A stretch of 64,000 nucleotides of DNA, taken from Pseudophaeobacter sp. GTDB taxonomy: Bacteria > Pseudomonadota > Alphaproteobacteria > Rhodobacterales > Rhodobacteraceae. A program made the position numbers and the translations under genes. Position 1 is the stretch's first letter. Every line of letters starts with the position of its first letter. Shown piece after piece: positions 1,383 to 4,299 of this stretch. The DNA is taken from NCBI GenBank assembly GCA_027019165.1, contig JALUXC010000024.1, forward strand, positions 62,001 through 126,000, in the 5' to 3' direction. The notes under the pieces were generated by a model. It worked only from the letters and a program-made list of their open reading frames with translations, did not search any database and was not told the origin of the DNA.

Positions 1383-2390
1383 TCAGGCCGCAGAACGCCC
1401 CGCAACCGGCTCCAACGCCTCAAGCACCAGGTTGGTGCCTGCACCTGCGCGATTGGCCCCCTCCGACAGAATTCGACGCCAGGAGCGCGCACCGGGGCGT
1501 CCGGCGAACAGCCCCAGCATGTGCCGCGTGATCTGATGCAGGCGCGCGCCCTGAGACAGTTGGCTTTCGATGTAAGGCAGCATCCTGTGGACCACCTCGA
1601 CTGCGTCGCGGGCCTCTCCCGTGCCAAAGATCAGCGGATCGGCTTCTGCCAGAATATCAGTCGGCTGATGGTAAGCTGCACGCCCGATCATCACGCCATC
1701 CAGCCCAAGATCCAGGTGCTCTTTGGCTGCCTCAAGCGAGGCAATCCCGCCATTGATCGAGATGTGAAGATCCGGAAACCGGGCTTTCATCCGGTGAACC
1801 AAATCGTAGTCCAACGGCGGGATATCGCGGTTTTCCTTGGGCGACAGTCCCTGTAGCCAAGCTTTTCGGGCGTGGATGGTTACCCGCTGACATCCCGCCT
1901 CGCGGATCTTTTCCAGGAACCCGGGCAGCACGTCTTCCGGTTCCTGATCATCAACCCCGATCCGGCATTTGACAGTAACCTCGACCTCAACGGCTGCGCG
2001 CATCTCAGCGACACACTCAGCCACCAGATCCGGTGACTTCATGAGCACCGCACCAAAGGCCCCCGATTGCACACGATCACTGGGGCAACCGCAGTTGAGG
2101 TTGATCTCATCATATCCCGCCTCTGCCCCCAGCCGCGCCGCCTCAGCCAGTTCTTGCGGATCCGAGCCGCCAAGTTGCAGCGCAACGGGATGTTCTTCGG
2201 GGCTGTAGTCCAACAAATGCAGCGCCCCCCCGCGCACCAAGGCCGGCGCGGTCACCATCTCCGTATACAGCAGTGTTTCCCGGCTCAGAAGACGGTGCAG
2301 ATACCTGCAGTGGCGGTCTGTCCAGTCCATCATGGGAGCGACCGACAGGCGGGCACTTCGTGCTGCATTTACAAATTTATTTTCAAACAC
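1383..2390 (-). CDS. dusA: tRNA-dihydrouridine synthase A; N-terminus supplied by the adjacent insertion
   Basis: RLSVAPMMDWTDRHCRYLHRLLS, NLNCGCPSDRVQSGAFGAVLM, VTVKCRIGVD, INGGI; the start lies beyond a 29-bp repeat that recurs at 3768. Confidence 0.93.
   Translation of the reverse strand: MFENKFVNAARSARLSVAPMMDWTDRHCRYLHRLLSRETLLYTEMVTAPALVRGGALHLLDYSPEEHPVALQLGGSDPQELAEAARLGAEAGYDEINLNCGCPSDRVQSGAFGAVLMKSPDLVAECVAEMRAAVEVEVTVKCRIGVDDQEPEDVLPGFLEKIREAGCQRVTIHARKAWLQGLSPKENRDIPPLDYDLVHRMKARFPDLHISINGGIASLEAAKEHLDLGLDGVMIGRAAYHQPTDILAEADPLIFGTGEARDAVEVVHRMLPYIESQLSQGARLHQITRHMLGLFAGRPGARSWRRILSEGANRAGAGTNLVLEALEPVAGRSAA
2326..2354. repeat. Left att-like direct repeat inside dusA: tccatcatgggagcgaccgacaggcgggc
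   Basis: Identical to 3768..3796. Confidence 0.9.
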
Positions 2391-2549
2391 TTAACGATCC
2401 CCAACTTCCAACATCGCACCTTCTAACACATACTAAAGAGCGGAAATGAGCCACAATATGCAACTGGAACAACAAAAGTTGCTCCAAATTGTTGTGTATT
2501 GTTCCGCTTTGTCCGTCCCATGTTAGATTGGGATTGACAGAATATCTTC

Positions 2550-3662
2550 TCACATCGAGGCAACGGCAATATCACAAAGTTCTTGGAACACATCTAGGTT
2601 GGCCTCCAAACCATCGTCTTCCTTCTCAGCAGCTTCGATACGCGCTTGGTAGGCTTTGGGAATGTTGACCAACTTCAGATCAACTACTGACCCAGCTCTC
2701 ATTATTCGGAAGGAACAGACGCGCATGCCAGTTTCTTCTGTCCTCCCCCCTGTAAAGCGGCTACCATCGGGATCAAAAGGGTCTTCAATTGGCCAAGACG
2801 CATGACCCAATTGCTCGACGGGTGAGTAAAGCTTGATGACCATTCGAGGGGTCACAGATCTTGGCATAAAGCCAGCCGTTTTGCCATAGAACCCAAGCAA
2901 CTTTGGAGTTGGTTCAAGCTCTACATCGAATGCAAAAAATTGAGTGTTCGGTGAGGAAGCTATTACCCTATCCTTTCGGAAGCAAACAAATTCCAAAGCG
3001 CCACCCCAAGAGTTTCTCGTCTCTGATAGTGGCTCCCAGAACAACTTTATCATGTTTGCATAAGCGCTGAGTTCCGCGATCAATAGCATTGGGTATTCAA
3101 TTAGTTCTGGAATATCCTTTGGTGCGTTTTTTGATTTCAGGCTCGCATCCATCATCTCCACCAGCCTTTTAAAATCATGCTTTCCGCTTCCAATCGCGCT
3201 GCATTCGCCAAAATACTCAGACTTAAAGTCAACAATATCGCCTGCGCCATAGTGGATACTATTCAACCCGCTACCCTTATGTGCTTCGAGTGCAAGAAAA
3301 TGTACAAGATCATCAGGGCTTGTATCATCTGGATGAGCGTCTCGCCAAAGCTGCTCAACCATATCAGCAGCTACTTGATCAGGTTGAAGAAACCTAAGCC
3401 GCAGTTGAATATTTTGGGCCAACTCCAAAATCTTTTCCCCATTATTTCCGGCAAAGCAGAAACCCTTGCCGTTGTTTGTCACGAAGTGCTTTCGCGTAAG
3501 GCGCGCTGCTCTCAAGCCTTCGTGAAGTAAGTTAACTTCTTCAGGTCGAAAATTGGATGGAGTGACTAACGCAGGCCCACGAGTTGTTACCAGCAGATCC
3601 GACACCAATGTGGGCGCACCGCAAGGACTGAGTATGGCTCCAACGGTCATTTTAACACCCAC
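2550..3662 (-). CDS. Hypothetical protein, possibly Ntn-hydrolase (proteasome beta/HslV)-like
   Basis: 370-aa ORF, only substantial ORF in the island; MTVGAIL..., GKGFCFAGNNGEKI and ECSAIGSGKHDF resemble the order of proteasome-beta-like motifs. Confidence 0.65.
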   Translation of the reverse strand: MGVKMTVGAILSPCGAPTLVSDLLVTTRGPALVTPSNFRPEEVNLLHEGLRAARLTRKHFVTNNGKGFCFAGNNGEKILELAQNIQLRLRFLQPDQVAADMVEQLWRDAHPDDTSPDDLVHFLALEAHKGSGLNSIHYGAGDIVDFKSEYFGECSAIGSGKHDFKRLVEMMDASLKSKNAPKDIPELIEYPMLLIAELSAYANMIKLFWEPLSETRNSWGGALEFVCFRKDRVIASSPNTQFFAFDVELEPTPKLLGFYGKTAGFMPRSVTPRMVIKLYSPVEQLGHASWPIEDPFDPDGSRFTGGRTEETGMRVCSFRIMRAGSVVDLKLVNIPKAYQARIEAAEKEDDGLEANLDVFQELCDIAVASM

Positions 3663-3767
3663 AAATTAGTGTGAACGGACCAGTAAGAACAACAATAGGA
3701 ACAACTCAGCAAAAACCTGAACACTAACAAATTGAATTCATAAATACTTTCCCAGACCGCCTTCCCT

Positions 3768-3796
3768 TCCATCATGGGAGCGACCGACAGGCGGGC
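3768..3796. repeat. Right att-like direct repeat (displaced dusA 5' codons ARLSVAPMMD)
   Basis: Identical to 2326..2354. Confidence 0.9.
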
Positions 3797-4299
3797 GGCT
3801 TTTATTGCAGTGTTGTTCAATGCCCAAACTCCGTTCAGTTCAACGCCATGGCTGGAAAAGATGTTCGAGACCTTACAAGCGGGTCAGGCGGTGCTCGGGT
3901 CGCGAATCCAGTGAACCTCGGTTTACCACAGCCCAACCCAGCAGCCCAACCACGCTCCTGCGGTCAGCTGGCAATGGCCAAACGGGTCACGGCAGCTCTT
4001 TGAACCGTCCTGAGTGTCCGCAGGCCTTGCCCCCCTCCGATGATGTCCCTCGCTTGCCCGAGCAAAGCCATCGAAACCTTTGCGAGGGAGGAGCACCCAT
4101 TCAGCACACAAATACCACCAATTCAAACATGCAATTTTTGTGATGCAGAAACACCTTTTACCGTGTCGCAAAACGGGAGGAGACGTTTTCGCAATGACAG
4201 TAAAGACCCCACGTGTGCGCGCAGGTTCGCAAGGCACCTTGGCCGAGCGAGCTGTAATCGGCGCCAATGGCGCGCGGCCTTGACGTGCAAAGCCAGACT

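Follow-up and report, generated by a model that had tools for sequence, protein, structure and literature searches.

The window, that is the whole stretch of 64,000 nucleotides analysed here from a contig of Pseudophaeobacter sp., contains a lone gene between two repeats just upstream of dusA. How such a gene came to stand there, and what its protein might do, are the questions raised by this locus. The initial annotation had read it as the single cargo of a mobile element, with a possible proteasome-beta/HslV-like (Ntn-hydrolase) fold and perhaps a function in defence, immunity or addiction. The best overall explanation, to which we give a probability of about 0.6, is a mini-island that would be moved in trans and whose cargo would be a divergent Ntn protein of the proteasome-beta type.

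The cargo is bracketed by a 34-bp direct repeat that derives from the dusA 5' coding region; its two copies are 94% identical and spaced by 1442 bp. The element is made up of the following features:

1383 to 2390, minus strand: dusA (tRNA-dihydrouridine synthase A; PF01207, E = 3e-86), the integration target, with its frame open
2321 to 2354, no strand: dusA-proximal att repeat (core 2328-2354)
2355 to 2390, minus strand: GTG start and initial 12 dusA codons, provided by the element
2391 to 2463, minus strand: conserved leader (TGCATATTGTGGCTCATTTCCGCTC...AAGTG), common to the mini-islands and absent from the prophage described below
2466 to 2508, minus strand: dusA-proximal arm array with the GCGGAACAAT ... 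GGAGCAACTTTTGTTGTTCC dyad, also present in contig C54 of genome G267
2550 to 3662, minus strand: cargo gene, 370 aa from a GTG, or 366 aa from an in-frame ATG at 3650
3687 to 3705, minus strand: pair of arm-like GTTGTTC boxes that begin 65 and 77 nt inward from the far att core
3763 to 3796, no strand: far att repeat (core 3770-3796), corresponding to the displaced original dusA 5' end

The reading frame of dusA stays open because the element brings a GTG start and the first 12 codons; the original 5' end of the gene lies displaced at about 3763-3830. The leader is a possible dusA promoter, and a consensus promoter scan called none within it. In three genomes of the same genus, dusA is single and uninterrupted. 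Neither an integrase ORF (in 2355-3762) nor a second ORF of plausible size was found in the 1,442-bp element, whose GC content is 45.7% against 59.3% for the window; low GC characterizes all three complete islands (this one and those at loci L003 and L045, see below). The description of the gene as the single cargo of a mobile element has thus held: it is the sole gene between two dusA att repeats, no integrase accompanies it, and its conserved ends are shared with other elements and with a dusA prophage.

A search for the dusA att core in 348 genomes of the family revealed a second small att pair, 1726 bp apart, in G253 (L003, with which L043 agrees); this genome is apparently identical in sequence to Phaeovulum vinaykumarii DSM 18714. 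The dusA-proximal end of L003 matches that of the window, and its cargo is unlike the window's. When 76 nt of this end were used as a query in 397 family genomes, strong matches were found only in the source genome (G000), G253 (5e-23), G263 (2.5e-20) and G128 (6.7e-15), and a GTDB scan yielded one further match, in a Rhodobacteraceae MAG (L042). Conservation of this end extends over about 150 bp among the elements. Besides the window's, two elements are complete (L003, 1,726 bp; L045 in G128, 1,151 bp) and three are partial or decayed, all of them in other genera: L042 is cut by the end of its contig, L044 (G263) consists of a decayed end that lacks dusA, and in L046 (G267, about 1.45 kb) the far att has decayed. 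The cargo differs in every element of the family. That of L003 has two parts. One is a protein with a match to phrog_14906 (1.6e-39) and a D..E.K motif that its Klebsiella homologue conserves (GDICLLGESDPFPIEVK / GDVSLLGKDEPFIIEMK); the other is an ORF of 110 aa, for which the Klebsiella record has a counterpart in a similar position. L045 carries a protein matching phrog_13799 (1.1e-10), L046 an SDR oxidoreductase and L042 an orphan. No mini-island cargo tested had a PADLOC match. Cargo and dusA point the same way in the window and in L003, L042, L045 and L046.

GTTGYTC boxes occur inside the far att core at 65 and 77 nt in the window, at 65 nt in L003 (and at 50 nt with one mismatch) and at 65 nt in L045. 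At the near end, GCGGAACAA...GGARCAACTTTTGTTGYTCC or a close variant lies 110-111 nt from the att core in six of six copies. Run against IMG/VR, the far-end pattern (att plus box) returned a single contig, G1034. This prophage of 35.4 kb has the dusA core, boxes at 50, 65 and 77 nt and, at its terminus, the tyrosine integrase P0002, where the contig stops, so that only one prophage end is covered. Contig C54 of G267 encodes an integrase that is 90% identical to P0002, its matched frame containing a single TAG; next to it come the same box array and then dusA. No single record spans both ends of the presumed helper. The array at this integrase end is 71-77% identical to those of the mini-islands; the next 75 nt are 49-56% identical between mini-islands and prophage end, against 65-84% among mini-islands. 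Since the boxes are common with the phage family and the following 75 nt are dissimilar, the mini-islands share the phage boxes and have a leader of their own.

The shared ends, the box registers and the occurrence of a P0002-type integrase with the same array and dusA therefore suggest that these are probably hitch-hiking mini-islands. Since the core site and arm boxes are kept at both ends, the window's element was probably moved in trans, and the matching ends and boxes point to a P0002-type integrase as the probable agent. In that case, the ends would retain the core site and arm boxes of the dusA-prophage integrase, a P0002-type phage would supply the enzyme by which the mini-island is excised and integrated, and the mini-island would provide a replacement dusA start, perhaps with a promoter, that leaves dusA intact. 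The mini-island family with its matching prophage integrase is a firmer and more interesting result than the orphan protein.

Other histories may explain these elements. One is that they are dead scars, dusA prophages that were separately reduced to their ends and a moron gene and are now immobile. Several observations fit this view: in L046, whose far att is decayed, some 200 bp of the phage's left end persist (77% identity), L044 is an orphan end with no dusA, phage remnants at dusA are already known (PMC4482086), and the source genome has no P0002 homologue that could act as helper. Nevertheless, the leader common to six ends (65-84%) is absent from the prophage end (49-56%), and three elements that differ in genus and cargo have preserved both att cores and the arm registers, which makes the dead-scar history rather unlikely. 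Less probable again is a movement by homologous recombination via the dusA flanks, for example in gene transfer agent particles, instead of by an integrase. An element this small would easily fit such a particle, and PMC9836097 describes gene transfer agent genes as well conserved in Rhodobacterales, but this scenario leaves unexplained both the arm boxes conserved at fixed offsets and the ends common to divergent dusA genes. We thus favor mobilization in trans by the prophage integrase.

Among known systems, the dusA-specific genomic islands that Farrugia et al. 2015 (PMC4482086) located by way of the integrase, which every one of them has, are between 4758 and 184808 bp long. The mini-islands resemble them in their dusA 5' target, their direct-repeat att sites and the new 5' end given to dusA, but they measure 1.15-1.73 kb and have no integrase adjoining dusA. 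CIMEs (cis-mobilizable elements) are decay products of ICEs or IMEs that are moved by accretion (PMC5704250). Like a CIME, the window's element keeps attL and attR without integration or transfer genes, whereas the relative of the mini-islands is a prophage, they carry one or two cargo genes, and their end and leader recur in several genera. With hitcher elements such as CALINs and MITEs (PMC11389934), the mini-islands share a minimal size and, as we infer here, mobilization in trans by the recombinase of another element; unlike those hitchers, they would use the tyrosine recombinase of a dusA prophage and single att pairs. Where that review deals with hitchers lacking an integrase, it names CALINs and not the dusA mini-island form. 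Judged against open-access papers, the mini-island family is a variant of the integrase-less hitchers (CIMEs, PMC5704250; hitcher elements, PMC11389934) at a known site.

The cargo ORF starts with GTG and has a second possible in-frame start, ATG, at residue 5 (base 3650). All the motif strings to which attention had been drawn lie within the 370-aa ORF in the order given (among them AIGSG at residues 156-160 and SWGGALEF from residue 218), and the candidate threonine is residue 6, directly after the in-frame Met5. The parts of the protein relevant to its fold are:

2928 to 3650, minus strand: candidate Ntn domain, residues 5-245
3645 to 3647, minus strand: codon of T6, the candidate nucleophile
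3597 to 3599, minus strand: codon of D22, in the candidate domain
3489 to 3491, minus strand: codon of K58, in the candidate domain
3447 to 3452, minus strand: codons of A71-G72, in the candidate domain
from residue 219, minus strand: WGGALEF, in the candidate domain
2550 to 2927, minus strand: C-terminal extension of about 125 residues, with no family or PDB match

The whole protein has no Pfam, NCBIfam, PHROG, PADLOC or PDB match at E<=10 and no homologue in 298 family, 399 phylum and 289 class genomes (overlapping samples). Relatives were likewise absent from plasmids and phages, and from IMG/VR and GTDB contigs, for which the scans were seeded by exact short peptides and are sensitive to close relatives only. 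At this depth of search, the protein is an orphan. A match in G381 (L002) falls at an apparent sulfite-exporter-type gene and was judged to be due to chance.

Proteasome-like proteins, which include 20S beta, HslV, Anbu, BPH, connectase and 22 further families, share Thr1, Asp17, Lys33 and Gly47 (PMC8665760, Fuchs et al. 2021). If the Met5 start is used, as we assume, removal of this methionine would expose Thr6 as the nucleophile at the mature N-terminus, and no propeptide would be needed. D22 lies 16 residues after T6, as Asp17 does after Thr1; K58 and G72, the latter preceded by A71, are 14 residues apart, the proteasome beta spacing of Lys33 and Gly47, and AIGSG follows downstream. D22, K58 and G72 would accordingly take the places of D17, K33 and G47, with the long extension behind them. 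This register requires an insertion of about 20 residues between the D17 and K33 equivalents; some proteasome-like families also have an insertion near the active site and a C-terminal extension (PMC8665760). These candidate positions make a proteasome-like reading of the cargo protein plausible.

Alternatively, the element may be as described and its protein have some other, uncharacterized fold, the proteasome look being due to chance and the function not being proteolysis. The T1-D17-K33-[AG]G47 signature, drawn up after the earlier reader had pointed out the motif, appears in 0.1% of shuffles with Met-Thr fixed, and together with a GSG in range in 2e-5 of them, a range that also admits the KGSG at 130. 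In a four-block beta profile, the blocks fall exactly on the motifs picked by eye and in the expected order. Anchored at Met+1, the score of this test, likewise designed afterwards, is equalled by 2 of 1500 shuffles and by one of 256 ORFs, a mechanical set that includes non-genes; the cargo protein reaches a z of 3.4 against 11-15 for genuine beta subunits. Without the anchor the score is unremarkable (81/1500 shuffles, 65/256 of the same ORFs), which is what another fold would predict. The same holds for the replacement of the accessory residues D166 and S169 and for the missing profile, PDB and HMM support: hmmscan found no PF00227 match at E<=10, and hhalign values were not significant (P = 0.047 for HslV, 0.27 for beta and 0.21 for Anbu) with small reference sets, in which the sequences used for HslV of E. 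coli, beta of Thermoplasma and human beta5 are approximate. The lack of significant similarity concerns HslV, Anbu and beta, the three families compared. Single-sequence AlphaFold models of the full protein and of residues 5-245 gave uninformative pLDDT values (33.7 and 35.0). Yet the exact T1-D17 and K33-G47 spacings, the AG, the downstream AIGSG and the anchored test speak against a chance resemblance, and another fold seems to us a serious but lesser possibility. On balance, the protein would have an Ntn fold with somewhat better than even odds, and catalytic activity is less likely than the fold. The fold first proposed is made plausible by the active-site register, AIGSG and the order of the four blocks, but the profile searches did not recover it. 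Membership in HslV itself is unsupported: PF00227 does not match, the element is without hslU, and the HslV of the source genome lies on a different contig, C25.

As for its role, the cargo would most likely provide a one-gene accessory function. The context, a phage-linked one-gene element, makes phage interference the leading guess, although a tentative one with slightly less than an even chance, and the SDR oxidoreductase carried by L046 is a counterpoint to defence. It would be bolder, and we think improbable, to suppose that integrase-less one-gene cassettes parasitize the dusA-prophage integrase and carry phage-interference genes, that of the window being a new proteasome-like catalytic family directed against those phages. 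If the proposed explanation is true, some lone accessory genes would be cassettes with a defined target, ends and helper, not random insertions, and a gene found between such ends would become a candidate for a phage-related function. The mobility of the cassette would be testable with one integrase and one reporter, and the structure of the cargo would tell whether the proteasome fold extends past the families already listed.

Some further observations concern the sites and junctions. Two dusA sites occur in G267, a MAG of 77% completeness: contig C6 has one, with the SDR mini-element, and C54 the other, with the P0002-type integrase (L158). This could reflect a mixture of strains. Upstream of dusA, L006, L008 and L010 show the dusA-proximal ends of integrase-bearing or related islands with other dyads (TTTGGTCC/GGACCAAA, ACTACAAAT and GTGTAGCAC), each perhaps matched to its own integrase. 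A helper search in IMG/VR with the dyad alone matched 11 contigs and was set aside as chance-like in appearance. Where cargo and end meet, several elements (2511-2545 in the window) show an inverted repeat resembling TCCGTCCCAT..ATGGGACGGA that may be a terminator; at the window junction, none was called by the consensus terminator scan. In G143, 6.4 kb separate two dusA att cores (L004:3479-9879); in this interval lie an apparent Rrf2-type regulator and an apparent ABC transporter operon of the peptide type, and it shows neither an integrase in its ORF list nor arm boxes of the window type. The orphan end of G263 (L044:6390-6640) has an att core and lies near a tRNA-like sequence, and a fragment upstream of it resembles the 110-aa ORF of L003. 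In L003 itself (2143-3633), this ORF is paired with the phrog_14906 protein, which is PD-(D/E)XK-like, and a comparable pair in the Klebsiella record (L143:11953-13241) has an IS5 element and a NADAR gene nearby.
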